Below the pieces are notes generated by a model. That model was given only the letters and a program-made list of their open reading frames with translations. It was not told the DNA's origin and searched no databases. Both the position numbers and the translations under genes were made by a program. Positions 7,461-26,631 of a DNA stretch of 64,000 nucleotides are shown here, in pieces. Each line of letters starts with the position of its first letter. Positions within the stretch are counted from its first letter, which is position 1. The DNA comes from Acinetobacter pullicarnis (GTDB lineage: Bacteria; Pseudomonadota; Gammaproteobacteria; Pseudomonadales; Moraxellaceae), in NCBI RefSeq assembly GCF_006352475.1, contig NZ_VCMZ01000001.1:3534001-3598000 (forward strand), read 5' to 3'.

Positions 7461-8693
7461 ATGAGCCAACATCTTTCTCTACCAAAAGATAAAATTCGTT
7501 TCCTATTGCTTGAAGGTGTGCATCAAAATGCCATCGATACCTTGCATGCAGCAGGATATACCAACATTGACTATCACAAAACCGCACTTGAAGGCGATGC
7601 TTTAAAAGCAGCGATTAAAGATGCGCATTTTGTTGGTATCCGTTCTCGCACCCAATTGACTGAAGAGATTTTTGCTTCAGCCAACAAACTCATTGCTGTC
7701 GGTTGTTTCTGTATCGGAACCAACCAAGTTAATTTAGATGCAGCTATGGAACGTGGTATTCCAGTTTTCAACGCACCGTATTCAAATACGCGTTCTGTTG
7801 CTGAATTGGTTTTAGCAGAATCAATTTTACTCCTCCGTGGCGTGCCTGAGAAATCAGCATCTTGTCATCGTGGTGGCTGGAATAAATCTGCAGCGGGTTC
7901 ATTTGAAACACGTGGTAAAACATTAGGGATTGTGGGTTACGGCTCAATTGGCTCACAACTTTCTGTATTGGCTGAAAGCCTCGGCATGCACGTGATCTAT
8001 TATGATGCAGTGACCAAGTTGCCAATGGGTAATGCACGTCAAGTCGGTTCAATGGCAGAATTATTGGCCAGCGCTGATGTTGTGACGCTGCATGTACCAG
8101 ACGTTCCATCAACCCGCAACTTCTTTGGCAAAGCACAATTTGCACAAATGAAAGCAGGTTCAATCTTCATCAATGCGGCACGTGGTACCTGTGTGGTAAT
8201 TGAAGATTTAGCAGATGCGATTAAATCGGGTCATATTGCAGGCGCTGCAGTTGACGTATTCCCGAAAGAACCAAAAGCCAATGGTGAAGAGTTTATTTCG
8301 CCATTACGTGGTTTAGACAACGTGATTCTTACCCCGCACGTTGGTGGTTCAACCATGGAAGCGCAAGCCAACATTGGTCTAGAAGTGGCTGAAAAATTTG
8401 TTGCTTATTCAGATAAAGGCATGACTTTATCTGCAGTGAATTTCCCAGAAATCGCACTGCCGTTAACTGAAGGCAAACATCGTCTTTTACACATTCATCG
8501 CAATGTGCCGGGCGTTTTGTCTAAAATTAACAATTTATTTGCTGAACACGGTATCAATATCTCAGGTCAATCTTTAATGACCAAAGGTGATGTCGGTTAC
8601 TTGGTGATGGATGTCGATGCCACTGCATCTCAAGAAGCATTAGACACCTTGCATGAAGTTGAAGGCACCATCCGCGTTCGTATATTGTTCTAA
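7461..8693 (+). CDS. serA: D-3-phosphoglycerate dehydrogenase
   Basis: Catalyses the NAD-dependent oxidation of 3-phosphoglycerate to 3-phosphohydroxypyruvate, the first step of serine synthesis. With 410 residues it matches the shorter E. coli-type enzyme. The nucleotide-binding domain carries GYGSIG, the catalytic acid/base region has TPHVGGSTMEAQ, and the last about 75 residues form an ACT domain (HRNVPGVLSKINNLF), where serine feedback is sensed in the family. The E. coli-type enzyme also turns 2-oxoglutarate into D-2-hydroxyglutarate, which fits the divergent dehydrogenase. The ATG at 7461 (MSQHLSLPKDKIRF) is chosen over an in-frame ATG at 7395, because the extra residues are not family-like and CGGAGCC lies just upstream. 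Confidence 0.96.
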   Translation: MSQHLSLPKDKIRFLLLEGVHQNAIDTLHAAGYTNIDYHKTALEGDALKAAIKDAHFVGIRSRTQLTEEIFASANKLIAVGCFCIGTNQVNLDAAMERGIPVFNAPYSNTRSVAELVLAESILLLRGVPEKSASCHRGGWNKSAAGSFETRGKTLGIVGYGSIGSQLSVLAESLGMHVIYYDAVTKLPMGNARQVGSMAELLASADVVTLHVPDVPSTRNFFGKAQFAQMKAGSIFINAARGTCVVIEDLADAIKSGHIAGAAVDVFPKEPKANGEEFISPLRGLDNVILTPHVGGSTMEAQANIGLEVAEKFVAYSDKGMTLSAVNFPEIALPLTEGKHRLLHIHRNVPGVLSKINNLFAEHGINISGQSLMTKGDVGYLVMDVDATASQEALDTLHEVEGTIRVRILF

Positions 8694-8759
8694 TTACGAA
8701 ACAAAGATGACATAACTTGAGTGACGTTCACGTTGCTCAGGTCTGCGCTTTTCATAAAG

Positions 8760-8820
8760 AAACCACACTTATAGCTAAATAAAGTAAAATCTTTGTTTAA
8801 TGTAAGTTGTGGTTTTTTTA
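8760..8820 (+). terminator. Possible terminator after serA
   Basis: Arms AAACCACA-CTTA and TAAG-TTGTGGTTT pair with one bulge around a loop of about 30 bases, followed by a T run. The long loop lowers confidence. Confidence 0.4.
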
Positions 8821-8869
8821 TGATGAGTGCATTCACAGAATCGCGCTTGTCCGCAAATTTGGTGTATTG

Positions 8870-9763
8870 ATGCAAGCCTTAAAAAATCCATCCAATCTGC
8901 AAGCAGTACTGCTCCTCTTATTGGCGATGATCTGCCTCCAGAGTAGTGGCTCCTTAGCCAAAGTGCTGTTTAATGAATTTCCCGTGCTCACCGTTGGTGC
9001 CATGCGCTTGATGTTGAGTGCGCTGATTTTGGCTGTTATTTTTAAAGCTTGGCAAATCGATTTCAAAGCGATTCGCTGGAAAGCCATTCTCGGTTATGGC
9101 TGTGCGCTTGCAGGCATGAATATTCTGTTTTATAGCGCAATTAATCGACTCCCGTTGGGCATCGCAGTGTCATTTGAGTTTATTGGACCACTTGGCGTTG
9201 CATTGTATTACGCCAAGCAAAAATATGATTTCATCTGGGTTGGCTTGGCGATATTGGGCATGATTTTATTATTCCCATTTGATCAAGCAGCACAATCCCT
9301 CGATTTGGTTGGCATTGCCTATGCGCTGGGTGCAGGTGCATGTTGGGCCTTATATATTGTAGCCGGGCAAAAACCATCAGGTATTTCAGGTAATCATACC
9401 GTCTGTTTGGGTATGTTTATTGGCATGTTCATTATGCTGCCCTTTTTATTTTTCTCCCCAGTTTTGGCCAAAATCGCCACCTTACCTTATTTCTATTATT
9501 TTATTGCCTTAGCAATCTTGGCCAGTGCACTGCCTTTTAGCTTGGAAATGATTGCTCTCAGAAATATGACACCGCTCAGCTTTGGTACATTGACCAGCTT
9601 AGAACCTGCTGTCGCCGCCATGTCGGGTTTTATTTTCCTCAATGAATATTTGTTGTGGACACAATGGTTGGCCCTGCTCACCATTGTTTCAGCCTCTGTC
9701 GGCTGTACCATTACCACCCAACGTGCTCGCCTCGCGCGTGAGCAAAAACAGCTAGAGCAATAG
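8870..9763 (+). CDS. EamA/DMT-family permease, RhtA-like exporter (copy 1)
   Basis: A 297-residue inner membrane protein with ten predicted helices and two EamA repeats, close in style to RhtA, the threonine/homoserine exporter of E. coli. Family signs are the GxxF/LGPLGVAL region (EFIGPLGVAL) and GAGACWALYI in the second half. The start at 8870 (MQALKNPSNLQAV) is preferred to an upstream GTG at 8807, whose extension overlaps the serA hairpin region. It is followed, 119 bases later, by a paralogue with the same segments in the same order, which points to a tandem gene duplication. The actual substrate cannot be read from sequence; amino acid or metabolite export is the family expectation. Confidence 0.85.
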   Translation: MQALKNPSNLQAVLLLLLAMICLQSSGSLAKVLFNEFPVLTVGAMRLMLSALILAVIFKAWQIDFKAIRWKAILGYGCALAGMNILFYSAINRLPLGIAVSFEFIGPLGVALYYAKQKYDFIWVGLAILGMILLFPFDQAAQSLDLVGIAYALGAGACWALYIVAGQKPSGISGNHTVCLGMFIGMFIMLPFLFFSPVLAKIATLPYFYYFIALAILASALPFSLEMIALRNMTPLSFGTLTSLEPAVAAMSGFIFLNEYLLWTQWLALLTIVSASVGCTITTQRARLAREQKQLEQ

Positions 9764-9882
9764 CCAGATATTCGCTATAAAAATACATATTCGCTGAGAA
9801 ATACACTGCTGCAATACTCCAGTAAAGCTGAATCAGCACTTCTTCTTTTTTGTTGTTGAAACAAAGATTAAGCAAAGCGATC

Positions 9883-10797
9883 ATGCTAGAATTTCAAACC
9901 TTGATTGCTTTGTTTTCTGCTATGCCAAATACTCAATTCGCTGCGGTATGCTGCATGATTTTATCCATGGTGGCTTATCAAATCAGTGCCTCTTTTGCCA
10001 AGCAATTGATTGCGGTATTGGATCCGCTTACGGTGGTGACCTTAAGGCTTTGCTTTGCATCCATCATGATATTTTTCATGTTCCGTTCTTGGAAAATCAT
10101 CAAGCGACTACCGCATTTACATTGGCGTGACCTGCTGTGCTACACCGCAGCTGTTGCACTCATGAATGTCTTGTTTTATGCCTCTTTGGGCAAGCTACCA
10201 CAAGGTATTGCCGTAGGACTTGAGTTTCTTGGCCCACTCACCTTGGCCTTACTTTCGATCAAACAAAAATCCGATTATCTTTGGGTTGGCTTGGCTATTT
10301 TAGGCATTGCGCTCATGGTGCCGTGGCAGCAAACTGCACAGCAAAACTTCTCTTATCTGGGCGCGGCATTTGCCCTCGGTGCGGGTGTCTGCTGGGCATT
10401 TTATATTTATTTCGGTCAAAAAGTCGTGCGGCAAAATATTGGTTTACACGCACTGACCATTGCCATTGTCTTGTCTGCCCTGATGCTGCTCCCAGTCAGT
10501 CTGGTACACAATCCTCATGCACTGATTCAAACTGAATACTGGGGTTATGCCTTGGTGATTGCTCTGCTGGCAACAGCTATTCCTTATGCCCTCGATTTAA
10601 TGGCGCTCAAGCAACTAAGCAAACTCAGTTATGGCACACTGTCTAGTCTTTCTCCAGCCATTGCCGCTGTGGCAGGGATGTTATTGCTTAATGAGAAAAT
10701 CACGTTATTACAAACCCTCGCCTTGGTCTGCATTATGTTGGCATCGGTGGGTGTAACTTTACGCAGTCAAAAAAAGCCCCCGGTGCTGGTTGAGTAA
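9883..10797 (+). CDS. EamA/DMT-family permease, RhtA-like exporter (copy 2)
   Basis: A 304-residue ten-helix DMT transporter paralogous to the gene just upstream. Shared blocks include EFLGPLTLALLSIKQK with the following LWVGLAILGI, GAGVCWAFYIYFGQK and the C-terminal PAIAAVAGMLLLNE. The ATG at 9883 is preferred over a TTG at 9850. No hairpin is seen between the two copies, so they may form one transcript. Export of amino acids or related metabolites is likely from the family but unproven. Confidence 0.85.
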   Translation: MLEFQTLIALFSAMPNTQFAAVCCMILSMVAYQISASFAKQLIAVLDPLTVVTLRLCFASIMIFFMFRSWKIIKRLPHLHWRDLLCYTAAVALMNVLFYASLGKLPQGIAVGLEFLGPLTLALLSIKQKSDYLWVGLAILGIALMVPWQQTAQQNFSYLGAAFALGAGVCWAFYIYFGQKVVRQNIGLHALTIAIVLSALMLLPVSLVHNPHALIQTEYWGYALVIALLATAIPYALDLMALKQLSKLSYGTLSSLSPAIAAVAGMLLLNEKITLLQTLALVCIMLASVGVTLRSQKKPPVLVE

Positions 10798-10847
10798 AAC
10801 ATAAGCATGAGATGACTGCCCCTTTTTTAGTACTGAATGGATGATTA

Positions 10848-11126
10848 ATGAAACAATATTTATTTGGCCCTATTCCAAAACTCCCGGTTAAGAGCATCGC
10901 GTGGATCATGCCTCTCATTTTATCGGGCTTAATGAGTGCCTCACTCTCCTGTTTTAATATGTGGATGTATAGCGGATTCTTCGAAGGCTTCTTTCAGGCA
11001 TGGTTAAACAGTTGGCTGCTTTCATGGCTTGTTGCTTATCCACTTATTCTGATTTTCTTGCCTTTGGTTCGCAACTTTCTGTTGCAGATTACTGAAACAC
11101 CTCCAGTCAATAACCACAAAGAATAG
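10848..11126 (+). CDS. DUF2798 family small membrane protein (complete copy)
   Basis: A 92-residue protein with two hydrophobic helices (about 16-37 and 55-77) matching the DUF2798 family of small two-helix membrane proteins of unknown function. The start codon is the only ATG giving the full first helix; the ribosome binding site is weak. From codon 7 onward the gene and 33 bases past its stop are repeated at 18600-18893 with 10 substitutions in 294 bases. This copy has the intact 5' end; the other does not. It is the left boundary of the fimbrial island. Confidence 0.8.
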   Translation: MKQYLFGPIPKLPVKSIAWIMPLILSGLMSASLSCFNMWMYSGFFEGFFQAWLNSWLLSWLVAYPLILIFLPLVRNFLLQITETPPVNNHKE

Positions 11127-11159
11127 TCAGCTCAGTGCTTTAAAATGTGAATTATATTA
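10866..11159 (+). repeat. Left 294-bp direct repeat flanking the fimbrial island
   Basis: Matches 18600-18893 over its whole length without a gap. I count 10 mismatches, all transitions. It starts inside codon 7 of the DUF2798 gene and ends at TTATATTA. Immediately beyond the end, the left copy continues GGGTCTTTTGGC toward the decayed transposase, while the right copy continues ATATCATTTA toward the lipocalin gene. Confidence 0.93.
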
Positions 11160-12620
11160 GGGTCTTTTGGCATTTTTTAAGCAAAATAAAGTGAGGAAGT
11201 AAAATTCAATCGTCAAATTAAATTTACTTATCGCTATGCCTCGTACAATGCTAACTGATCAACACAGGTCAAAGCTAAAAACTATTTTCTGTAATTTTTG
11301 ATATTTATCTCAAACATAATTTACGTTTATTTATTGAAGCTATTCTTTATAGAAGAATAGGTTGCTCTTGGCGTGATTTAATTGATCTATTAGATCTAGA
11401 ATCAACTGAAACTTTATGTGCCGATAAAGGCTATGATTCTGAAAAATTAAGGGAACAAATTATAAACACAAAAACCAAGGCAAACATTCCAACGCAACTG
11501 AATACAAAATTGCGCAACGATGATATGGATTGGTATTTATATAAAATCAGACGCTTGGTCTAAATTTATTGAAAATGATGAAATACCTGTGAGTAAAGAT
11601 GAAAATATATTTTATTGAAAATTGAGGCTATAAATGAAACGGTGTATCTATATGCTTCATTAACAGACCAATAACAGCTTTATTTAATAAGTTGTATGAG
11701 GGGAGGAAAACCATAAATTCTTGTAGGTAACTGGGTATAATCTCAATAAAATGCTTGTATTTCAGATGCTAAGAAAAGCTGATCTCCAAAATGGAACGAT
11801 CATCAGATAATAGAAATATTTGAACAATTCAAATCCAGATTTAAGAAATAAAATAATGACTATTATAAATTCTAATAAGCTTAAAGCAGATTATTTAAAT
11901 CTTTTTTTGATTTTTGATTAAAGCTTTATTAAAAGGTTCATTAATTTTTTGTATAAATCATCCAGAATAATTAGAAAATATAGCTCATTAAAGTCTCACC
12001 TTATATTATTTTAAACCCACAACCAACACATTATGCACAAAGAGGCTTTTATACTTATTTATATATCAAAGTCAGGTTAATTACCAATTACAGATAAATT
12101 AAAATAAGCTTTCAATCAAAAACCAGAATATTGTCTAACCAAAACAAGAATTACTCCCCAAGTTATTTAAAAACTGAATCATCATTTAAATAACAATAGT
12201 CATTATATAAAAATTTCTCATGTCACGAGATTTTAAAGGTCAGATCAATGAGGTTTATTTTTGAATTACAGCATTAAATATTTACGCTGCATTAGTTCGA
12301 CCCAACACCCAAGTTGTATCCTAAATTATTGTGTTGGCAAAATACTACGGATTAAATATTTATGTAACAAAGCCATTTTACTCCATCCGAATGTTTTTTA
12401 TTCTCGCTGCAAATTATGAGTGTTTATTTTACCAAAAATTAAAAATAAATATAAAATTAATCAAATATAATCAATAATTTAATATTAGTTTTTTAAAAAC
12501 ATACCAACATTTATAACAAAAGATAAAAAAATAACCACTTTTGCTTGTTACAAAAAACAAGCAATTGCTAAGGTCTTGTTTGCTAAAAAAAATTAACACG
12601 CCATAACTTTAATTTAAAAA
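11160..12620. other. AT-rich gene-poor segment inside the fimbrial island
   Basis: About 1.46 kb with no intact gene. The first 400 bases hold a broken IS5-type transposase (separate entry). From about 11600 to 12620 the sequence is very AT-rich, full of stop codons in all frames, and I could not recognise any product. Such composition is typical of silenced, horizontally acquired DNA and of decayed mobile elements. Confidence 0.6.
11236..11563 (+). pseudogene. Decayed IS5-family transposase
   Basis: The translation starts MPRTMLTDQHRSKLKTIF, typical of IS5-family (IS427-like) transposases. After a frameshift near 11290 it continues with FIEAILYR and GCSWRDL. It then jumps directly to LCADKGYDSEKLREQI and DDMDWYLYKIRRLV. 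The catalytic middle part is missing by an internal deletion of roughly a hundred codons, so the element cannot be active. The sequence GGGTCTTTTGGC at 11160, exactly where the left 294-bp repeat ends, may be the old terminal end of the element. No right end was identified. Confidence 0.8.
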
Positions 12621-12626
12621 TTTAAC

Positions 12627-12655
12627 TTGACCTAAACAGTCGGATTTAATTTAAT
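12627..12655 (+). promoter_or_regulatory. Candidate sigma-70 promoter of the fimbrial operon
   Basis: TTGACC at 12627-12632 and TTTAAT at 12650-12655 are separated by 17 bases, near the sigma-70 consensus, about 92 bases upstream of the first pilin start. Confidence 0.6.
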
Positions 12656-12747
12656 GCGCTTGCAAAATGTGTTAAAAATCACATATTGCACTTTAAATAA
12701 GTAAAAATTGACTTATTAAACAGATAAATCTTTTGAGGAAATAGATT

Positions 12748-13287
12748 GTGAATAAATTATTCGTAGTATCAGCATTATTAATTACCGGTACAGTACAAGC
12801 GGCGACAACTGTAAATGGTGGTGCAGTACACTTTAGCGGTGAGTTTGTGAATGCAGCATGTGCTGTAAGTTCAGATACAGCTGATCAAACTGTTATTTTA
12901 GGTCAACACCGTACAGCGAATATTACTGCTGTTGGTCAATACACATCAAATAAACCTTTCACAATTAAATTAGTTGATTGTGATACAGCAGTTTCTAAAA
13001 CAGCACAAATTGCTTTCTCTGGTCCTATAGATTCAACTGATACCACTTTATTAAAAATTCATTCTGGTCCATCTTCAAATGCAACATCAGCTACTGGTGT
13101 TGGTATTGAGATTTCAGATAGTAAGGGTAATGTTTTAACTCCAGATGGTACGGTTTTATCTACCGCACAGACATTAATTGATGGTGATAATACCCTTAAC
13201 TTTATGGCTCGTTATAAATCTACAGCTGAAAAAGCAACTGCTGGTAAAGCATATGCAGATGCAAACTTTGTAGTTACATACGAATAA
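12748..13287 (+). CDS. Fimbrial major subunit, first gene of the chaperone-usher operon
   Basis: A 179-residue pilin. The signal peptide is about residues 1-18 (ending VQA). The mature N-terminus is an alternating donor strand (TTVNGGAVHFSGEF), and two cysteines (about 38 and 78) supply the pilin disulfide. The C-terminus has the chaperone-recognition strand (ANFVVTYE). GTG at 12748 serves as start, preceded by a good TTTTGAGGAAATAGATT site. It is the first gene of pilin-chaperone-usher-tip-pilin and is followed by a strong stem-loop, which would favour high expression of this gene over those downstream. It is likely the main shaft subunit. Family is certain; receptor and role (adhesion or biofilm) are inferred. 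Confidence 0.92.
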   Translation: MNKLFVVSALLITGTVQAATTVNGGAVHFSGEFVNAACAVSSDTADQTVILGQHRTANITAVGQYTSNKPFTIKLVDCDTAVSKTAQIAFSGPIDSTDTTLLKIHSGPSSNATSATGVGIEISDSKGNVLTPDGTVLSTAQTLIDGDNTLNFMARYKSTAEKATAGKAYADANFVVTYE

Positions 13288-13292
13288 TATAT

Positions 13293-13331
13293 AAGATGAT
13301 ACTTCTATTTATAGAAGTATCATCTTCTTTT
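13293..13331 (+). terminator. Intra-operon stem-loop between pilin and chaperone genes
   Basis: A perfect 14-bp stem (AAGATGATACTTCT / AGAAGTATCATCTT) with a 6-base loop, followed by CTTTTCTT. It lies directly after the major pilin stop. It probably acts as a partial terminator or 3' mRNA stabiliser so that shaft subunits outnumber chaperone and usher. Confidence 0.8.
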
Positions 13332-13365
13332 CTTAAAATGCTCATTACTCACTTTGGAAAATAAA

Positions 13366-14061
13366 ATGTTAATTAAATTAATACACCATAAATTTAAAGT
13401 TATTATCATATTTTTTTCTTTAATGAATATTTCATATGCATCGAATGGTGGGATTGCTTTGGGGGCAACAAGATTAATATATGAACAAGATAAAAAACAG
13501 GCATCAATGCCTGTTATTAATAGCACGAAAGAAAAAAGATTTTTAATTAATGCATGGGTTGAAGATGCATCTTCAAAAGCGACTAAGAGTGTAATTGTTA
13601 CCCCTCCTATGTTAGTGAGTGAACCAAAATCAGAAAACTCACTTCGTATTGTTAATACAAATCAGAATTTAGTTCAAGATCGAGAGACCTTGTATTATCT
13701 CAATGTACAGGCAATTCCATCTGTAAATCAGAAAGATTTAGAGGAAAATAATGTTTTGCAATTGGCAATTCTCTCTCGGATCAAAATGATGATGCGTCCC
13801 AAAAAATTATCTATTGCGGTTGAGGATGCTCCAGAAATAATTGATGCGTATCTTTTAGATAATAAAATTATAATTAAAAATCCGACACCTTACTTTATGA
13901 CACTAGTTAATATAAGTATTGATGGTATTAAACAAGATAATATGATGTTAGAACCATTTTCAGAAAAAAATTTAAATATTTCCGGTAAAAGTTTTTCATT
14001 TCAAACAATTAATGATTTTGGTGCATTCACTAAAGCAATTGAAAAAAAGATCGGTAATTAA
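13366..14061 (+). CDS. Periplasmic fimbrial chaperone (PapD/FimC family)
   Basis: A 231-residue chaperone that carries pilin subunits through the periplasm by donor-strand complementation. A signal peptide ends near ISYA before SNGG. The G1-strand region of domain 1 (LQLAILSRIKMMMRP) carries the conserved basic residue and hydrophobic alternation, and the domain 2 hallmark NPTPYFMTL is present. The start codon is the ATG at 13366, with GGAAA upstream; a TTG at 13354 is in frame but less likely. It is co-directional with, and 24 bases before, the usher gene. The Cys pair and long F1-G1 loop of CsuC-like chaperones are not evident, so this is a classical PapD-type system, unlike the Csu pili of Acinetobacter. 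Confidence 0.92.
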   Translation: MLIKLIHHKFKVIIIFFSLMNISYASNGGIALGATRLIYEQDKKQASMPVINSTKEKRFLINAWVEDASSKATKSVIVTPPMLVSEPKSENSLRIVNTNQNLVQDRETLYYLNVQAIPSVNQKDLEENNVLQLAILSRIKMMMRPKKLSIAVEDAPEIIDAYLLDNKIIIKNPTPYFMTLVNISIDGIKQDNMMLEPFSEKNLNISGKSFSFQTINDFGAFTKAIEKKIGN

Positions 14062-14085
14062 TAAAATTAATCAGGTTGAATCAAA

Positions 14086-16677
14086 ATGAAAAATATAAAA
14101 TTTTCAAAAAAAATATTTTATATTCACATTGTCTCTTTGCATGTTTTCTTATTTGGAAGTGTAGTTCATGCAAAAGAATATTTTAATCCTGCCTTATTGC
14201 TGAATACATCAGATTCCTCAGTTGCCGATCTATCAAAATTTGAAAGTGGCTACCAATTAGCAGGAATATATAAAGTTAATGTTTTCTTGAATGAGGATTT
14301 TATAGCATTTAAAGATTTTAATTTTGTGCAAACAGAAAAAAATGACATAATTTCAGGTGGTTTGACACCGTGTATCGATAGCAAATGGTTGCTTTCTATT
14401 GGTGTCAAAGTCTATGATTTTCCTGATGCTGAAAATTTAAATAATCAAAGCTGTATTGATTTAAAAAAATATATTCCAGAATCTAATATTTCTTACAATT
14501 TCTCATCCCAACGATTAGATATTAGTATACCTAATATCTGGGTGGAGAGTGAAGCACGCGGATATTTACCACCTTCAGAATGGGATGATGGTATTACTGC
14601 AGCTTCTCTAAACTATAATTTGACTGGTAGTAACTCCGAAAATAGTAATAATATATTTCTTTCTCTAAATACTGGCTTTAATATAGGTGGTTTTAGATTT
14701 AAAAATTTATCAAGTTATAATTACTTTCAACAAAAGCTAAATAATACCAATACGTCAAAATGGAATAATATTCAAACTTATGCCGAGAAATCAATCATTC
14801 CAATAAAGAGTGAATTGGTTCTGGGGGATAGTAATACGGATCACGCTATTTTCGATAGTGTTGGTTTTCGCGGTATACGCTTATATAGTTCAGATGCAAT
14901 GTTGCCCATCAGTAAACAAGGATATGCACCTGTTGTTCGCGGTATTGCCAATAGTAGAGGTGTACTTACTATTCGGCAAAATGGATATGTTGTTTATCAA
15001 ACCAATGTTGCAGCTGGTCCTTTTGCAATCAATGACTTAACTTCTATGTCTGGCAGTGGTGATTTAAATGTAACGATTGAAGAAAGTACCGGTGCCGTTC
15101 AAAACTTCATTATACCTTACTCTGGTGTACCCATTTTATTACGTGAAGGCCGTACAAAAGTTGATATAGCCATGGGTGAATTCCGAAGTGGTAATAATGA
15201 GCAAGGCACTCCTTTTTTTGTACAAGGTATTATTAGCCATGGTTTCGGTAAAGGCCTGACAGGGTATGGTGCTACACAGCTTGCTTCAGATTATAAAGCA
15301 ACGTTGATTGGCATCGGAAAAAACTGGGGCCGTTTTGGTGCTTTTTCTTTTGATGCCACTCAAGCAAACAGCACATTGGCGAATGGTGAGGAGCATAGTG
15401 GCCAATCCTATCGCTTACTTTATTCAAAATCACTAAATACCTTGGGAACAACCTTTCAACTTATGGGTTATCGTTATTCAACCAAAGGATTTTACACATT
15501 AAATGATGTTGCCTACAAATCGATGGAATCATTTCAGTTTGATCAAAATTATGATGATTTTGGAAACCCCTATAATGATCCATCTTCATACTATAATTTA
15601 AACTATAAAAGGCGAGGCAACTTTCAATTTAATGTCACTCAGAATTTAAATAGTTTTGGATCAATGTATGCATCGGTAAACTACCAGACTTACTGGAATG
15701 TACCAGAACCTTCTCGTTCTTATCAATTCGGTTATGCAAATACTATAAAAGCTATAACGTATTCACTTGCATGGAGTCTACAAGATTCTTTCAATGCTTC
15801 AAATACTTTAAATGCAAACAATAATTCGATTTCTGCAACGATTTCTTTTCCAATGAATGCTTTTTTCGGTTCAAGAGATCGAGTTAAAAATGAAATTTAC
15901 AGTAATAGTAATATTGTTCGAAATTCTTCTGGTGGGAATGTTATACAAACAGGTTTAAATGGTTCTTTACTCGAACACCAAGCATTAAATTACAGCATTT
16001 TACATGGTCAGAATACAGATACTGGTGGTTTCGGTACAGCAGCAGTGCGCTTAGATACTAAATATGGTAGCGGTGGTATGGCATATAACTTTGCTGAAGG
16101 TGGTAAAGATACAAGTATCAACTATGATTTATCTGGTGGGATGATTTTACATTCTGGCGGTTTGACTTTAGGTCAATCCTTAGGTGATACCAATATTCTA
16201 GTTGATGCGAAGGGTGCTAAAAATGTGAAAATTGAGAACTCACGTAACATACATACTGATTCACGTGGTTATGCAATTTTACCATTCGCTGATAATTATC
16301 GTATGAATCGCATTGCCCTGATCACCGATGATCTCGATCATAAAACAGAAATCTTAACCAACGTTCAGAATATTGTACCAATGAAAGGCGCAATTATTAA
16401 AGCCAATTTTGATTCACGTATTGGGCACAGAGCTTTGATTACGCTGAAACACTTAGATAATCACGTCCCATATGCTTCTGCTGTAACCGAAGAAAATCAA
16501 AAAATTAATAGTATCGTTGGTCAAGATGGTCAAACCTATTTAAGTGGTTTGGCAGATAAAGGCAGTCTAAAAATTGTATGGGGAACATCCGCAGCTGAAA
16601 GTTGTACAGCACCTTATACGATTGAAAAAGCAGATCAATATACGGGCCTAATTAATTTAGAACTAATATGTGAATAG
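14086..16677 (+). CDS. Outer membrane fimbrial usher (FimD/PapC family)
   Basis: An 863-residue usher that forms the outer-membrane pore through which chaperone-pilin complexes are assembled. A signal peptide of about 29 residues ends VVHA. The mature protein starts KEYFNPALL, the family-typical N-terminal chaperone-binding domain. A long beta-barrel follows, with GFRGIRLYSSDAMLP and QKG-type plug region motifs (ISKQGYAPVVRGIA). Two C-terminal domains end with a cysteine pair (ESCTAPY ... LELICE). Length is normal. It lies between chaperone and tip-adhesin genes, with 11 bases to the next start. Confidence 0.96.
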   Translation: MKNIKFSKKIFYIHIVSLHVFLFGSVVHAKEYFNPALLLNTSDSSVADLSKFESGYQLAGIYKVNVFLNEDFIAFKDFNFVQTEKNDIISGGLTPCIDSKWLLSIGVKVYDFPDAENLNNQSCIDLKKYIPESNISYNFSSQRLDISIPNIWVESEARGYLPPSEWDDGITAASLNYNLTGSNSENSNNIFLSLNTGFNIGGFRFKNLSSYNYFQQKLNNTNTSKWNNIQTYAEKSIIPIKSELVLGDSNTDHAIFDSVGFRGIRLYSSDAMLPISKQGYAPVVRGIANSRGVLTIRQNGYVVYQTNVAAGPFAINDLTSMSGSGDLNVTIEESTGAVQNFIIPYSGVPILLREGRTKVDIAMGEFRSGNNEQGTPFFVQGIISHGFGKGLTGYGATQLASDYKATLIGIGKNWGRFGAFSFDATQANSTLANGEEHSGQSYRLLYSKSLNTLGTTFQLMGYRYSTKGFYTLNDVAYKSMESFQFDQNYDDFGNPYNDPSSYYNLNYKRRGNFQFNVTQNLNSFGSMYASVNYQTYWNVPEPSRSYQFGYANTIKAITYSLAWSLQDSFNASNTLNANNNSISATISFPMNAFFGSRDRVKNEIYSNSNIVRNSSGGNVIQTGLNGSLLEHQALNYSILHGQNTDTGGFGTAAVRLDTKYGSGGMAYNFAEGGKDTSINYDLSGGMILHSGGLTLGQSLGDTNILVDAKGAKNVKIENSRNIHTDSRGYAILPFADNYRMNRIALITDDLDHKTEILTNVQNIVPMKGAIIKANFDSRIGHRALITLKHLDNHVPYASAVTEENQKINSIVGQDGQTYLSGLADKGSLKIVWGTSAAESCTAPYTIEKADQYTGLINLELICE

Positions 16678-16688
16678 GCGTTTATAAG

Positions 16689-17723
16689 ATGAAAAGAATG
16701 GTTACTAACTTGCTTAAGCTACGATTAAAATCGATATTGTTTGCTCTTGGCTTAATGGTGTCAACCCATGCATATTCCGTATCTTGTGTTCCTAGAAATA
16801 ATGCTCCTTACATCTATAATTATGATACTGATTTTGATTCCAAAGAAAATTATGTGGGTTATTCAACCAATTGGATCTCCTTAAACCGAGGAGGAACATA
16901 TACTTTACCAAGCCCCTGTAGTGGCAAATTGGGTCCAGTTTATTTTACGCTTTTGCCTGAAAATTCGCTCATATTAGCGGGTAATTCCGATAAAATGACC
17001 TATTGGTATGATATTCCAGAGAATGATTATTTACAGGTTGCCATGCAAGTGTATATTGGGGGCAACCGAGGAACGTATGAGCCAATCCCAACAAATGCGA
17101 TCAGCAATCAATGTAATAAATGTGGTCCTGAATGGGCATCTGGTGGAAAAATTAAAGTAAAATTAAGAGTTAAAAAGAAGTTTGTAGGACAGTCTTTTGT
17201 TGTAAGTCGTTATATCGGATTGATTTATGCCGCAACCTCAGCGAAGGATAAACCTACCGTGCCAATTTCTCTTATTCAATTGAATGCAACGATGACCGTG
17301 CCTCAATCATGTGTTTTTGATGTTGGAAGTGTGATCGAATTTGATTTTGGAAAAATCCCATCAAGTGGATTCTCTAATGTAGGTGTAGGAAACAAACCTG
17401 CTGGAGTAAATCCCATGATAAAAACCATCGGTATTGAGTGTAAAAATATAGATGCACAACAGATGTTATCGGCCCGCATTGAGGCTATAAATCCGAGTGG
17501 CAATATGATTAGATCCGATAACAAAGATGTTGGTTTTCTAATCGCAGATAAGAATGATCGTGTTTTAGTTCCTAATAATAGCTCAAGTTATATTCCTTTT
17601 AAATTAGATCAAAATTCACGGAGTAGCTTTGTATTAAAAGCATGGCCCGTGAGTCTGACAGGTGTTAAACCCAATGCAGGTCCTCTCAGCTCACAGGGAC
17701 ATGTGCGGATTGATTTTCAGTAA
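16689..17723 (+). CDS. Two-domain fimbrial tip protein (probable adhesin)
   Basis: A 344-residue exported protein, about twice the length of a pilin. After a signal peptide (about 1-30), an N-terminal domain with several cysteines (SCVPRNNAP, SPCSG, NQCNKCGPEW) has no family I can name. The C-terminal about 150 residues look like a pilin domain (NATMTVPQSCVFDVG, FDFGKIPSSGF, HVRIDFQ). This is the layout of tip adhesins such as FimH, with a receptor-binding domain joined to a pilin domain. It lies directly after the usher, as tip subunits often do. The CNKC motif in the N-terminal domain is unusual. The ligand cannot be predicted. Confidence 0.82.
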   Translation: MKRMVTNLLKLRLKSILFALGLMVSTHAYSVSCVPRNNAPYIYNYDTDFDSKENYVGYSTNWISLNRGGTYTLPSPCSGKLGPVYFTLLPENSLILAGNSDKMTYWYDIPENDYLQVAMQVYIGGNRGTYEPIPTNAISNQCNKCGPEWASGGKIKVKLRVKKKFVGQSFVVSRYIGLIYAATSAKDKPTVPISLIQLNATMTVPQSCVFDVGSVIEFDFGKIPSSGFSNVGVGNKPAGVNPMIKTIGIECKNIDAQQMLSARIEAINPSGNMIRSDNKDVGFLIADKNDRVLVPNNSSSYIPFKLDQNSRSSFVLKAWPVSLTGVKPNAGPLSSQGHVRIDFQ

Positions 17724-17747
17724 AGAATATTGCTTTAAAAAGATGAG

Positions 17748-18272
17748 ATGAGAATAATGAACATTATAAGGTTTCTTGTGATCAGTGGAATATTCTATTC
17801 AACTCCGTTATTTGCAGATCCCGTAGTTAGAATCAACCTGACTTTGAAAGCAACTATTTTTGAACAAACTTGTGTTGTATCACCAGGGAGTGAAGATATT
17901 ACTGTTGCACTTGGTACATGGATGACTCGAGGTATGTCTAATGTTGCGATGCGAACGCAATCAATACCTTTTTCAATTCAGTTGGCTGGTTGTACGTCAG
18001 ATACAGTTGCAATTTCATTTATAGGTGAATCTGATCCGACCAATGTAAAGTATTTAAGGTTAAGTGCTAGTTCGACAGCGAAAAATGTTGCAATAGAAAT
18101 CTTAGATAAAGATAAAAAAACCTTACCTCTAGGGACGTACTCCTCTATACAAAATGATACAGGGAGTGAGAATATTAAATTAGATTTTTTTGCTAATTAT
18201 ATTTCTACAGGTGAAAAGGTCTCCGCCGGTAAAGCAAATGCGACTGCTAATTTCTTATTAGAATATGACTAA
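17748..18272 (+). CDS. Fimbrial minor subunit
   Basis: A 174-residue pilin-like protein with a signal peptide (about 1-23, ending LFA), an alternating N-terminal strand (VVRINLTLKATIF), two cysteines (EQTCVVSP and AGCTSD) and a pilin-like C-terminal strand (ATANFLLEYD). It follows the tip gene by 24 bases and ends the operon. It could be an adaptor between tip and shaft, or a second shaft subunit. It shows the FxxxxTRGMSN / PFSIQLAGC pattern common in pilins and is only distantly similar to the pilin at 12748. Confidence 0.88.
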   Translation: MRIMNIIRFLVISGIFYSTPLFADPVVRINLTLKATIFEQTCVVSPGSEDITVALGTWMTRGMSNVAMRTQSIPFSIQLAGCTSDTVAISFIGESDPTNVKYLRLSASSTAKNVAIEILDKDKKTLPLGTYSSIQNDTGSENIKLDFFANYISTGEKVSAGKANATANFLLEYD

Positions 18273-18599
18273 ATGAATTCGCTGAATTTTGTAGTTACAG
18301 ATCTTTAAATAAGTTGAGAGAAATCTTCATTTGGCATCTGCAATGAATCCTGTTTATATCGTGACGTTTAAGATTGAGTAATAGAACTTGTTTCTTGAAC
18401 GCTGTAGTAAATAACTACCACTACATGCAAATCGCTGATTCTCAAATAGTCCTAAAATATCGAATTTATGAAAGAGAGTGATTTTAGTGGTTTAAACAAT
18501 CAAGTACAGTGAGGTGCATTATGTTTTATTTGTCTATATATAGATATCAGCAGCTTCAAGCCGCAAGTGTGACCGTATAAAACCAGCCACAACTTCATT
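18273..18599. other. Gap between the fimbrial operon and right repeat
   Basis: About 330 bases with no reading frame I can support and no clear terminator for the fimbrial operon. Sequence here does not match the DNA upstream of the left DUF2798 copy, so the right repeat's homology starts abruptly at 18600. Confidence 0.55.
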
Positions 18600-18860
18600 G
18601 GCCCTATTCCAAAATTCCTGGTTAAGAGCATCGCGTGGATTATGCCTCTCATTTTATCGGGCTTAATGAGTGCCTCACTCTCCTGTTTTAATATGTGGAT
18701 ATATAGCGGATTCTTCGAAGGCTTCTTTCAGGCATGGTTAAACAGTTGGCTGCTTTCATGGCTTGTTGCCTATCCGCTTATTCTGATTTTCTTGCCTTTG
18801 GTTCACAACTTTCTGTTGCAGATTACTGAAACACCTCCAGTCAATAACCACAAAGAATAG
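18600..18860 (+). pseudogene. 5'-truncated DUF2798 gene (second copy)
   Basis: Same reading frame as the complete gene at 10848, but the first six codons and the start ATG are absent: upstream in frame there is only TATAAAACC... back to a TGA. The first usable ATG (18642) would give a 72-residue product lacking the first part of helix 1. Changes relative to the complete copy are few (for example Met to Ile and Arg to His), and no stop codon has appeared, so the truncation is recent or the shortened form is still made. Confidence 0.7.
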
Positions 18861-18893
18861 TCGGCTCAGTGCTTTAAAATATGAGTTATATTA
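18600..18893 (+). repeat. Right 294-bp direct repeat flanking the fimbrial island
   Basis: Second copy of the sequence at 10866-11159, in the same orientation, with 10 transitions and no indels. Together the copies bracket about 7.4 kb (11160-18599). Confidence 0.93.
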
Positions 18894-18942
18894 ATATCAT
18901 TTATCTAGATTAATTCATCATTTCATTAAATGGACGAGCAGC

Positions 18943-19560
18943 ATGAATATCACTAAAGTCCTGATTAAAGTTAGCCTCGCTAGCACTCTTTTCTTGAGCA
19001 ATATATTAGCAGCGACATATGCACAACCTGCCCCGGTTCAAGCCGTTGATCATATTGAGCTGTCTAAATACTTAGGGACTTGGCATGAAATTGCTAGAAA
19101 ACCACTCAGTTTCCAAAATAAATGCGACCATAATGTCAGTGCAAGCTATGCTTTAAATAAAAATGGAAACATTGAGGTCACTAATCGCTGCTATAGCAAA
19201 GCTGGTAAGCTTTCGCAGGCAATAGGCGAAGCATGGGTACAAAACCCACCAGCCAATTCTAAACTCAAAGTCAGCTTCTTACCCAAAGCAATCCGCTGGT
19301 TACCTGTTGGGCGTGGAGATTATTGGGTATTAAAACTTGATCAAAATTATCAAACCGTGTTGGTCGGTGGCCCCAGCAAAAAATATATGTGGATTCTCTC
19401 GCGTACACAAAATCCAGATCCAGCCGCGATTCAAGCCTACCTCAATTATGCGCAAAGCATCGGTTATGATTTAGGTGATCTTATTCAAACCAAGCAAACC
19501 ACCAACCCAATGCTGATGATATTACCAACAAATGAAACCGAGGCAGGCAATCGGTATTGA
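18943..19560 (+). CDS. blc: Bacterial lipocalin (Blc family)
   Basis: A 205-residue lipocalin with an N-terminal signal peptide (cleavage likely near LAATYA) and the family blocks GTWHEIAR, VTNRCY, YWVLKLD and YMWILSR. Blc proteins bind lysophospholipids and fatty acids at the outer membrane. Most Blc are lipoproteins, but no lipobox cysteine is visible at the end of this signal peptide, so this one may be free in the periplasm. The C-terminus is about 20 residues longer than the lipocalin core. It stands directly right of the island; in the ancestral order it was probably next to DUF2798. Confidence 0.9.
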   Translation: MNITKVLIKVSLASTLFLSNILAATYAQPAPVQAVDHIELSKYLGTWHEIARKPLSFQNKCDHNVSASYALNKNGNIEVTNRCYSKAGKLSQAIGEAWVQNPPANSKLKVSFLPKAIRWLPVGRGDYWVLKLDQNYQTVLVGGPSKKYMWILSRTQNPDPAAIQAYLNYAQSIGYDLGDLIQTKQTTNPMLMILPTNETEAGNRY

Positions 19561-19711
19561 TGGCCTCACATATCTTTTGACTACCCGATTTAAATCTGGA
19601 TGCGCGCGCTATCAAATAAAAAGTAACCAATGCAGTCCATGCTGTATTAACGCAAGGTTTTTCTATTATAATGACACGCCTTTATAACTGTTCATTTTGC
19701 AGGGATCATTA

Positions 19712-20062
19712 ATGCTGTTACCAACATTAGAGTTGCCGGATGTTTTTGTTTTATATAACAGAGAAGATCATTTTGTCAAAATTGATGAAAGTGAAACAGA
19801 TATCGACTTTATTGAAGACCAAGAGGGCAAAAAATATATTGGAATCAGAATATCTGGCTTAGAAATCAACTCAAGTAATGCCTTCATTATTGATATTCTT
19901 CAGGAAAAAGATAGTGCAGGCGAACACCTTTATCAGGTATATGAGGTCAATAACGATGTGCAACTCAGTGACTATCTGTTGACTAAAGCCACGCTACTCA
20001 ACACCCAAATACAAAAACTAGAGCTTATGTTCTGCTCAAGCTATTTGTTTAACGAGATCTAA
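19712..20062 (+). CDS. Hypothetical protein
   Basis: A 116-residue acidic soluble protein with no recognised domain and no signal peptide or membrane segment. ATG at 19712 is chosen because GCAGGGA lies 9 bases upstream; a TTG at 19697 is in frame. Reading is even and codon use is like its neighbours, which supports a real gene. Confidence 0.6.
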   Translation: MLLPTLELPDVFVLYNREDHFVKIDESETDIDFIEDQEGKKYIGIRISGLEINSSNAFIIDILQEKDSAGEHLYQVYEVNNDVQLSDYLLTKATLLNTQIQKLELMFCSSYLFNEI

Positions 20063-20175
20063 TCGGTCTCGTCTTTTAGCGCGACTGTTTTGGCTTGGCT
20101 GACATTATAAAAGCGCTGTAACATCCAGTCGGACAGTAAGCCGACAACAAAACCAAAGCTAAAAAGAATAGGCAA
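20059..20175 (-). pseudogene. Possible 3' remnant of a small membrane protein gene
   Basis: A 38-codon minus-strand frame with a hydrophobic start (LFSFGFVVGLLSDWML) and a hydrophilic end (AKTVALKDETD). It opens only with TTG just after a stop codon and has no clear ribosome binding site. It looks like the C-terminal end of a membrane protein. Its first bases overlap the plus-strand remnant at 20172. Confidence 0.3.
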
Positions 20176-20375
20176 TTATTGCCAAAGCCTTATTCCTCTC
20201 CCCTTTACCCTTATTACTTATTACTTATTTTGGTTCCGTTCTTTATTTTTATGAATTGTGGAAAGGATTGAGTGATCTTCCAACCCTGTTTATGGCGCTC
20301 TTTCCTGGGCTCTGCTATTGGTTTTTTTTGATTAAGCTGCAAGCCAGAAAAATGGCGAAGGATAAAATAAACTGA
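20172..20375 (+). pseudogene. Possible remnant of a membrane protein gene
   Basis: A 67-codon open frame immediately after a TAG, without an ATG near its start. The translation is strongly hydrophobic with two helix-like stretches (ALFLSPLPLLLITYFGSVL and LFMALFPGLCYWFFLIKL) and a basic tail (QARKMAKDKIN). It looks like the 3' part of a two-helix membrane protein gene that lost its start. Confidence 0.35.
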
Positions 20376-20413
20376 CCTGATCTCGAGCGTATATGGCTAA
20401 GGTAGTTGCAGAT

Positions 20414-20443
20414 AAAAGCCGACGGATTCATCAGTCGGCTTTT
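20414..20443 (-). terminator. Terminator of the leftward small membrane protein gene
   Basis: AAAAGCCGAC / GTCGGCTTTT, a 10-bp perfect stem with a 10-base loop, with T-rich flanks on both strands. It lies just past the stop of the gene at 20471. Confidence 0.75.
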
Positions 20444-20470
20444 ATTATTTGACAGGGTTTAAAACAATTC

Positions 20471-20911
20471 TTACTGGATTTTTGAGCTTTCAGGTATTTG
20501 CTCAAACATAGCTTCAAGATCATGTTGATCTAACATGCCACCAATAACTACTTTACGCGCTTTCCCATCAGTCGAGGTATATTCAATGACATGAATACTT
20601 GATTTAAATGCCATAAAAAAAGCAGCGATGCCTTTTTTCTCGACAATTTTAAATGTCCCCGCATTAAACGGACAGCTCACTTTTTTAAAGATTTGTTTAA
20701 AGCTAATCTGATCTGCGAGAACCGAGTATTTAGGAAAGTTAATAAAATAAAATGCAATTGCCATCCCAAGTGCAGCACTAATACCCGGACCTGATTTCTG
20801 TCTGATTGCGGTCATAATTATAAATAAAATTGCGAGCAATAAAAAAGAAAGGAAAGAAGAAAGGATCTTACGTTTTTTCGGTGTTTCATAAACGTTTATA
20901 ACATGTGTCAT
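20471..20911 (-). CDS. Hypothetical inner membrane protein
   Basis: A 146-residue protein with two close hydrophobic segments (about 17-35 and 45-60) followed by a soluble domain of about 85 residues with beta character. The layout (short N-terminus, two helices, PH-like soluble tail) resembles small bacterial PH-domain membrane proteins, but I cannot assign a family. Start at 20911 (MTHVINVYE) is chosen for its strong GAGGG site 9 bases upstream; a TTG at 21013 extends the frame without such a signal. Confidence 0.65.
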   Translation of the reverse strand: MTHVINVYETPKKRKILSSFLSFLLLAILFIIMTAIRQKSGPGISAALGMAIAFYFINFPKYSVLADQISFKQIFKKVSCPFNAGTFKIVEKKGIAAFFMAFKSSIHVIEYTSTDGKARKVVIGGMLDQHDLEAMFEQIPESSKIQ

Positions 20912-21309
20912 GTGAAGCCCTCGATATCGGGAGATGAAATACCCTTTAATGGGTAAAGAAATAAAATTATTTTCAAATTGCTCAAGTCTTGGCTGGGAAA
21001 TAATCTGTGACAAGTATATTAACGAAATAGAATAGTTTAATATTAATTAAAAAACAAATGAATTAAATATAAATACTAAACAATATGGGTGAACAAAAAT
21101 GCTTTAACTCACTTAATATTTCAGTATTGCAGCATGATTTAGCCCATAAAATAAATGGATAAATTTCTAAAAAAAAAACTTCTAAAAATTCTAAGCTTTG
21201 GCATAATCAATTTTACTCTTGGAAAAAGGTCAACTTATATGGATCCCTCGCCTGCAAAAGGTATAAAAAAAACTTTGATTTCAGTTAACGCTTGCTGGAG
21301 TACAAATTA

Positions 21310-22833
21310 ATGGAGTTTTTATTAGACCCTGGCATTTGGGTTGGTTTACTCACCCTGATTGTTTTAGAAATTGTTTTAGGTATTGATAACCTCGTCTTTA
21401 TTGCCATTTTGGCTGAAAAACTTCCTCCAGAACAACGCGATAAGGCTCGTGTGATTGGCCTTTCTCTCGCTTTGATCATGCGCTTAGGCTTATTATTTGC
21501 GATCTCTTGGTTAGTCACTTTGACCAAACCACTTATTACACTCTTTGAGTTGACCTTCTCAGGTCGAGATTTAATTCTTTTATTTGGTGGTTTATTCCTG
21601 GTCTATAAAGCAGTCACTGAACTGCATGAAAAAATGGAAGGTAAACCTGAAATTAAGCTCACCACCAAAGTGGCTTATGCAGGTTTTACTGCAGTTGTTA
21701 CCCAAATCGTTGTATTAGATGCGGTCTTCTCTTTAGATTCCGTCATCACTGCCATTGGCATGGTCGATAATATTTATGTGATGATGGTCGCCATGATTGT
21801 GGCGATGGGCGTGATGTTACTGGCCTCTAAATCACTAACCGCTTTTGTCAATCGCCACCCAACCGTGGTTATTCTTTGTCTTAGCTTCTTATTATTAATT
21901 GGTATTAGTTTAATTGCAGATGGTTTTGGCTTCCATATTCCAAAAGGCTATATCTATTCTGGTATTGGCGTTGCCATTTTAATTGAAGCCTTTAATCAAT
22001 TTGGTCAACGTAATGTCGCCAAACACGAATCTAAAATCCCATTACGACATCGCACCGCAGATTCAATTCTCAAGCTGATGGGTGGCCGAATGGAGGCGTT
22101 AACAGACAACGCCCAACATGTTGAAGCTCAAAAAGCTTTTGCGGATGAAGAACGTTATATGATCGGTGGGGTATTAACCTTGGCAGAGCGTTCTGTTGCC
22201 TCCATCATGACACCACGTCGCCAAATTTCTTGGGTAAATTTGGATGACACTGCCGAGCAGATTCGTGAACGGATTTTATCTGTTCCACACAGTTTATTCC
22301 CCGTGTGTCGCGGTAATCTCGATAAAGTCATTTCAGTGGTTCGCGCTAAGGAACTGCTTGATGTTTTAGATAATGCAGAAGCACTTAAAGCCTTAATCAA
22401 ATTGCATCGCCCAATCTATATCTTTGAAAAAATGAAAGTCATTGATGCAATTAATACCTTACGCACGTCAAAAGGCTCATTGGTTTTGGTCAGTGACGAG
22501 TTTGGAAATATTCAAGGTTTGATCTCACCACTGGATGTATTTGAAGCGATTGCTGGAGAATTTCCCGATGCAGATGAGCAGCTTGATTTAATCCAAGTCG
22601 ACAACACCACATGGAAGGCATCGGGCATGCTCGATTTATACCAATTGGAGTTGGCACTTGGCTTTGACTTGGTTGAAGAAGATGTTAGTTATATCAGTGT
22701 TTCTGGTTTAATCCTCGATAAATGTAATGGCATCGTCGAAGTTGGCTCTCATATTGATTATCAAGGTCTACATTTTGAAGTGATTGAATTAGATGGTAAT
22801 TTAGCGAAAACAGTGATGATTACTTTAATCTAA
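21310..22833 (+). CDS. TerC-family integral membrane protein with CBS and CorC/HlyC domains
   Basis: A 507-residue inner membrane protein. Residues 1-215 form a TerC domain of seven helices with the acidic motifs [10 protein letters not shown] and [11 protein letters not shown], typical of TerC/Alx metal-ion transporters. A pair of CBS domains (about 290-410) follows, with [18 protein letters not shown]-terminal CorC/HlyC domain (about 425-507) completes it. It matches E. coli YoaE in architecture. Family members are linked to manganese or other metal export; the substrate here is inferred. ATG at 21310 with GCTGGAG upstream is preferred over a TTG at 21292. A strong terminator follows. Confidence 0.9.
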
Positions 22834-22854
22834 AACGCGACAACAGCCACCGTA

Positions 22855-22887
22855 AAGAAGACACCGCAAGCGGTGTCTTCTTTTTGC
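22855..22887 (+). terminator. Rho-independent terminator after the TerC/CBS gene
   Basis: A 13-bp perfect stem (AAGAAGACACCGC / GCGGTGTCTTCTT) with a 2-base AA between the arms, followed by TTT. Very strong. Confidence 0.9.
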
Positions 22888-23060
22888 TTTTTTGATATTC
22901 AACACTCCATCGTGTAGCACACTTTTTCGTTTGCCTAATGATTTCTCAGTGTGATGGTTTGCCTGCCGAATGATTCGTCTATGTTATTTGCGATGAATAG
23001 AGCCTGCCGCTATACTTTTGCAGCTTTTTTTGCCCGACCGCGAAATCCCAAGACCCCGTT

Positions 23061-23507
23061 ATGAATAAATTAGTTTATATGTTTGTCGCAGCCAGTTTAA
23101 TGTCCGCTTGCTCCGAACAGCCAAAGCAAAATGCTCCGCAAACCAATGCGCTCTCATCCGAGCATCATCCTCAATTGGCGGCATGGGTCGGTGACTATTC
23201 TGGGGTGATTCCCTGCGTGGGCTGTGTTTCTCGTTGTCCCGACTGTGAAAGCATGGCCATTGATTTAAAGATTACACCCGACCAGAAATTTATCCTGACA
23301 CGTACCAGTCTAAGTACTCAGGCTGCGCCTGAAGTACTGATGGGCACATTTTCATTTCTAGATCAGCAACAACTTAAAATTGAATTGTTAAATGTAAAAG
23401 ACAGAAGCAAGCTAATTTTAGGCAACGACTATATGGAAATTATAGACACCAAGTCGGATCAACCTTATCAGGCCTATCAGGACTTCCGCATCTATAAGCA
23501 AAGCTAA
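23061..23507 (+). CDS. NlpE N-terminal-like lipoprotein with a cysteine cluster
   Basis: A 148-residue lipoprotein. The lipobox LMSAC places the lipidated Cys at 17. The rest resembles the NlpE N-terminal domain (GDYSGVIPC, MAIDLKITPDQKFILTR, MGTFSF). NlpE takes part in copper tolerance and Cpx envelope signalling in E. coli. This protein lacks the C-terminal OB-fold domain of full NlpE. Distinctive are four cysteines at 52, 55, 59 and 62, a CxxC-x3-CxxC arrangement where NlpE normally has one CxxC; this would suit metal binding or redox chemistry. Single gene with no partner. Confidence 0.8.
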   Translation: MNKLVYMFVAASLMSACSEQPKQNAPQTNALSSEHHPQLAAWVGDYSGVIPCVGCVSRCPDCESMAIDLKITPDQKFILTRTSLSTQAAPEVLMGTFSFLDQQQLKIELLNVKDRSKLILGNDYMEIIDTKSDQPYQAYQDFRIYKQS

Positions 23508-23579
23508 CCTCGTGCGATGTTGATACACAACGGAATCGGTTTTTATTCGATATATAGTCAAAAAACAAACATCTATGGC

Positions 23580-26628: not shown

Positions 26629-26631
26629 ACC

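Follow-up and report, generated by a model that had tools for sequence, protein, structure and literature searches.

The stretch analysed here, hereafter the window, comprises 64,000 bp of Acinetobacter pullicarnis (contig 1, positions 3,534,001-3,598,000; the assembly totals 4.125 Mb in 3 contigs) and contains a type 1-like fimbrial operon bracketed by two direct copies of a DUF2798 sequence. We conclude, at a probability of about one half, that the operon is part of an acquired block, scarred by insertion sequences (ISs), at the variable site between an EamA-family exporter and a TauE/SafE-family permease of the Acinetobacter chromosome, and that it was installed by a single crossover in DUF2798 and one illegitimate joint. 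The inner edges of the two repeat copies coincide with the terminus of an IS5-family element (copy 1) and a remnant of an IS30-family element (copy 2), both of which were missed in the original prediction for this locus.

Repeat copies and their insertion-sequence edges

The features that define the repeat pair are as follows; assignments refer to Pfam families, alignments and open reading frames (ORFs).

10848-11126 (+), DUF2798 gene, full copy 1 (PF11391, E 5.6e-16; N terminus like that of the closest homologues, P0001 and P0002)
10866-11159 (+), direct repeat copy 1, within the limits of the original prediction (pairwise comparison, repeat finder)
11164-11559 (+), IS5-family remnant with its left terminus at 11164 (plasmid matches; alignment to elements in loci L199 and L200)
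18549-18597 (-), left limit approximate, IS30-family end of ~49 bp including the 3' end of the transposase gene, cut at 18597 (alignments described below)
18600-18893 (+), direct repeat copy 2, a DUF2798 sequence that has lost its first 16-18 bases and with them the normal start (repeat comparison, ORFs, Pfam)

Pairwise comparison confirmed that 10866-11159 and 18600-18893 form a direct repeat of 294 bp, gap-free and with 10 mismatches, for which a repeat finder gave the limits 10864-11163 and 18598-18897. As the original prediction had described, the DNA between the copies holds a chaperone-usher operon, a decayed transposase and an AT-rich segment (25% GC). Used as a DNA query, copy 1 matched the source genome at the two repeat copies only; a protein search with DUF2798 counted a third, weaker match besides these. 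In our judgement, the 97% identity over 294 bp without a gap, together with the presence of just two such places in the genome at the DNA level, excludes a chance origin.

The inner edge of copy 1 abuts an IS5-family terminus. A search of plasmids for distant matches to 11164-12747 returned 141 records, all from Acinetobacter; among the 20 matches listed, 13 begin exactly at window position 11164, and every one of the 20 carries an IS5-type transposase annotation. The reference IS5 elements in L199 and L200 follow TA, start with GGGTCTGTTGACATTT and are succeeded by TA again beyond their end. The remnant in the window likewise follows TA, lacks ~300 bp internally and has lost its right end, which corresponds to the final ~154 bp of the reference. 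Its terminal sequence, its TA target and its similarity to annotated IS5-family transposase genes place 11164-11559 in the IS5 family, with one end only preserved. At the equivalent point, copy 2 reads TATATTA and then ATATC without interruption, which is an unoccupied IS5 TA target.

At the inner edge of copy 2, the segment 18555-18597 is 86% identical to many copies in the genus. Throughout, genus searches covered 175 genomes, the source genome included; a 368-bp query found matches in 31 of these, its own genome among them, with individual matches partly checked. All 11 loci fetched from other genomes (L202-L212) align at 18555-18597. In L203 and L212, the two for which ORFs were listed, a transposase gene has its 3' end in this sequence, and the L212 ORF matched the NCBIfam model for the IS30 transposase with 294 bits. 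The source genome carries two copies of the IS30 sequence elsewhere, with a 320-amino-acid transposase frame. Terminal sequence and transposase 3' end thus identify 18549-18597 as IS30 family, preserved as a remnant. The IS30 sequence ends at 18597 and DUF2798 continues from codon 6, with 2-5 bp common to both parents at the joint, depending on the IS30 copy compared.

As had been proposed, one DUF2798 copy is full and the other has lost its 5' end: the normal start is absent from copy 2, and the two closest homologues, P0001 (97%) and P0002 (89%), keep the N terminus that it is missing. The copies differ at seven coding positions, four of which alter the amino acid, and at all four changed codons P0001 and P0002 carry the residue of copy 1; 3 of 92 residues separate P0001 from copy 1. 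Among 29 more distant genus homologues, codon 75 (R in 27) and codon 40 (M in 12, I in 5) side with copy 1. Copy 2 is probably a decaying remnant, which may still give a short product.

IS scars at both inner edges and an IS5 target kept unoccupied in copy 2 would also suit a history that began with a local duplication. DUF2798 and its flanks would have been doubled, after which IS5 and IS30 insertions, the arrival of the fimbrial genes and deletions would have trimmed the copies to 294 bp. More steps are required by this scheme, and an ungapped search with the repeat finder across 8000-22000 found no longer extension of the pair. We consider it unlikely.

A lineage-specific block at a variable site

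The flanks of the site and the genes of the block outside the repeat-bounded unit are the following.

9850-10797 (+), EamA-family exporter, left conserved flank (Pfam EamA; ortholog adjacent to TauE in all 56 readable relatives)
18943-19560 (+), lipocalin, Blc-like (PF08212; Blc model below cut-off)
19697-20062 (+), lineage-specific gene without a Pfam match
20471-21013 (-), lineage-specific gene without a Pfam match
21292-22833 (+), gene for a TerC-CBS-CorC protein (Pfam)
23061-23507 (+), NlpE-like gene (Pfam)
23580-24353 (-), TauE/SafE-family permease, right conserved flank (PF01925, E 2.3e-45; orthologs 71-84% identical in 56 relatives)

The exporter was matched in 171 genomes (own included). 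Its best match in another genome reaches 77% identity at the DNA level, which shows that the species is isolated within the genus sample. For comparison of the site, 60 stretches around the exporter were fetched, one per genome and mostly from genomes high on the list of 171. Both flanks are present in 56 of them; measured between match ends, exporter and TauE are separated by 15 bp to 8.5 kb, with a median of about 700 bp. No insert gene of the window was found between exporter and TauE in any of these 56 (E 1e-5). The remaining four relatives show no insert gene either; L133 stops at a contig end, and L222, L234 and L237 gave no TauE match.

Because none of the window's genes lies between the flanks in the 56 readable relatives, the lineage-specific block spans ~12.7 kb and comprises DUF2798, the fimbrial genes, the lipocalin, TerC and their neighbours. 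The 7.7-kb unit between the repeats is only part of this block. The outcomes that would have spoken against the original prediction did not occur: at this site, none of the relatives has two copies of DUF2798 or the fimbrial operon. As to the empty site with a single target copy that it led us to expect in close relatives, both the insert and the DUF2798 target are absent from all 56. The proposed ancestral order of exporter, DUF2798 and lipocalin is seen in no relative: the 40 lipocalin loci are without a DUF2798 match and the 15 DUF2798 loci without a lipocalin match (E 1e-6), and neither gene occurs at any of the 60 site loci. The lineage itself may nevertheless have had this order shortly before the fimbrial block arrived. 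Lipocalin relatives are Acinetobacter in 26 of 40 named loci, and these match best. DUF2798 relatives occur in 151 of the 175 genus genomes (own included), those listed being at most 62% identical.

What occupies the site in relatives varies. ORFs were inspected in 19 of the exporter-TauE intervals. In 11 of these a similar small protein is encoded, which in L130 carries a hemerythrin domain; the other 8 contain different ORFs or are nearly empty. A search of the source genome for the hemerythrin-domain protein gave no match, although this search says little about absence. In L239, L241 and L246, 8.52-kb inserts whose lengths agree within 2 bp lie between the same flank genes. Genomic islands scarred by ISs at variable sites of Acinetobacter chromosomes are a general notion, and the block resembles them in its mosaic cargo and in its position, which other genes occupy in relatives; no specific feature sets it apart from them.

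A block that is lineage-specific and carries IS remnants could in principle be a dedicated mobile element, such as an integrase-driven island, a phage or an IS-flanked composite transposon, with the repeats as its attachment sites. Several results argue against this reading. No integrase or phage family was detected in the scanned block genes of at least 80 amino acids (DUF2798, the five fimbrial genes, the lipocalin and four further genes, small overlapping ORFs being left out). In a search for near matches, phage records matched only part of the TerC gene, and no DUF2798 relative was found in viral contigs. The two IS remnants belong to different families, and each is missing one end. Finally, 10781-10900 and 23481-23600 do not share any 8-19-base repeat, direct or inverted. 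With no integrase in the scanned genes, no phage-type support and no repeats at the block ends, we reject the repeats as attachment sites, and we regard a dedicated element as highly improbable.

Searches of plasmids did not support carriage of the block on a known one. A search for near matches to 10700-23700 yielded 5 records, all confined to the TerC gene or part of it, and 18273-18660 and 19561-21300 had no match. DUF2798 matched 50 plasmid records (Sinorhizobium, Ensifer, Acidovorax) and the usher 2224, all below 60% identity. The TerC gene, which is absent from the site in 56 of 56 relatives, has 77% identical relatives on two small Acinetobacter plasmids. Between two small ORFs of the block, 20060-20460 resembles gene debris by eye. 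Beside the right flank, lipase chaperone and lipase-like genes (25609-27606, Pfam) vary in number; for the gene at 26632, the first 20 relatives fetched show zero to five matched stretches at the equivalent place.

A proposed history of the locus

We infer the order of events, the donor and the crossover as follows. The lineage would first have gained DUF2798 and the lipocalin, plus further genes, at the site. The donor DNA would have consisted of a type 1-like fimbrial operon between a DUF2798 fragment next to IS5 and an IS30 end, and it would have entered via a single homologous crossover in DUF2798. The illegitimate joint of the IS30 remnant to DUF2798 codon 6 would have formed either in the donor, by recircularisation followed by Campbell-type integration, or during integration itself. 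The outcome would have been an intact DUF2798 gene to the left of the operon and a truncated remnant to its right, and the IS5 element would have shed its right end and an internal piece. A single crossover with one illegitimate joint is the simplest history; variants of it with linear DNA are conceivable.

The foreign DNA has a direct duplication of the target on both sides, as expected of the Campbell-type integration put forward originally, and the geometry of the locus is compatible with a single crossover. However, the edges of the repeat need not mark the limits of donor homology, as the first coincides with an IS5 terminus and the second with an illegitimate joint inside an IS30 remnant. 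The homologous joint is indistinguishable from a duplicated copy, and the illegitimate joint is observed at the IS30 remnant.

Insertions of this type have been described in Escherichia coli with a conjugated plasmid. In the available part of that report, 56 of 60 Lac-negative recombinants gave the polymerase chain reaction product of a partial duplication, 14 partial duplications were sequenced and measured 109-950 bp, and they were ascribed to a single crossover with a circle missing part of the homology (PMC3240628). As far as the available part of the report describes them, those Campbell-type insertions share with our locus a full copy on one side, a truncated copy on the other and foreign DNA between them. 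In contrast, the edges of the duplication are IS scars here, and no donor molecule has come to light.

The right joint, with its 2-5 shared bases, appears illegitimate, and it is conceivable that the block entered by homology-facilitated illegitimate recombination, a process on record for Acinetobacter baylyi (as cited in the available part of PMC3240628). One homologous and one illegitimate joint would be compatible with that process. Its described product, however, is a deletion of similar size, and partial duplications are credited in the same part of the source to a single crossover (PMC3240628); our locus shows a duplication rather than a deletion, with the joint at an IS30 remnant. As the end product is identical to that of a single crossover with one illegitimate joint, the two are not separable by sequence alone. 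We regard this route as unlikely.

Several observations weigh against a single crossover with one illegitimate joint. The analysis turned up neither a donor nor a circular form, nor an empty site in the same species. Since the edges are scars, the original repeat may have been longer than 294 bp. The 2-5 bp shared at the IS30/DUF2798 joint would fit a plain deletion, too. The relatives that are without fimbriae are also without DUF2798 and lipocalin at the site, and therefore do not display the state before the crossover. P0001, whose source is not shown, may be close kin of the window's own DUF2798 protein. Among the 29 more distant genus homologues, codon 12 favours the copy 2 residue (F in 15, against the L of copy 1 in 6); at codon 13, 23 have H and 6 have the P of copy 1. 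In addition, the frame of copy 2 is free of stops, and an internal ATG at 18642 opens a 72-amino-acid frame that matches PF11391 (E 5.7e-16). This ATG weakens the case for a pseudogene; the homologue P0020 (68 amino acids) starts at the equivalent methionine.

Fimbrial operon and possible excision

The DNA between the IS5 remnant and copy 2 contains the following features.

11560-12747 (no strand), AT-rich stretch, 25% GC, without a listed ORF of at least 60 amino acids, upstream of the fimbrial operon
12748-13287 (+), major pilin, FimA-like (PF00419; NCBIfam NF011741 above cut-off)
13354-14061 (+), periplasmic chaperone, PapD/FimC-like (PF00345, PF02753; FimC model below cut-off)
14086-16677 (+), outer-membrane usher, FimD-like, 863-amino-acid open frame (PF00577, PF13954, PF13953; FimD model below cut-off)
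16689-17723 (+), tip adhesin-like protein, distantly FimH/LpfD-like (C-terminal PF00419; FimH model below cut-off; PDB 5afo, E 4.3e-20)
17748-18272 (+), minor pilin or adaptor, FimF-like (PF00419; FimF model below cut-off)

Five contiguous open frames with Fimbrial, PapD_N/C and Usher/PapC_N/C domains make this, as judged from its domains, a complete type 1-like chaperone-usher set. It shares with such operons the contiguous major pilin, chaperone, usher, two-domain adhesin-like protein and minor pilin, and its pilin scores above the FimA model cut-off. Unlike in those operons, the FimC, FimD, FimH and FimF models stay under their cut-offs. The 16689-17723 product is a putative adhesin, a role suggested by its weaker FimH/LpfD similarity.

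The best five usher copies in the genus are 62-65% identical, and in those five genomes the operons lie at other sites. In one of them, L153, a lipocalin relative (46%) is located ~5 kb past the fimbrial operon. The AT-rich segment (~1.2 kb), compared with the five related fimbrial loci, gave only one 26-bp match. At the protein level, P0023, which represents 17 sequences and whose source is not shown, differs from the window usher at 5 of 863 residues.

A second pilin gene (54-599, minus strand; PF00419, E 1.8e-12) is present at the left edge of the window. In L129 the match to this gene adjoins distant chaperone and usher genes, and another operon of the chaperone-usher type may therefore extend beyond the window's left edge. 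In L129, L139 and L140, a distant usher (27-30% identical; confirmed by Pfam in L129) is located a few kb beyond the left flank and hence outside the site.

The repeat copies share identity runs of 59, 68 and 57 bp, and RecA-type excision across the repeat via runs of up to 68 bp is plausible. The assembly contains no further repeat copy in the genome and hence no separate excised form. It is very doubtful that the DUF2798 copies would act as a low-frequency switch, with RecA-dependent loss of the 7.7-kb fimbrial unit as a circle and regeneration of a single DUF2798-lipocalin junction. If true, such a switch would make fimbriae reversibly gained and lost within a population.

Acquisition of a gene block of this familiar kind is otherwise ordinary genome plasticity. 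The locus is a readable fossil of the entry of a surface-adhesion operon into an Acinetobacter chromosome, with IS remnants marking both inner edges of the repeat. It also carries a warning: a clean direct repeat flanking an island need not reflect donor homology or an attachment site.

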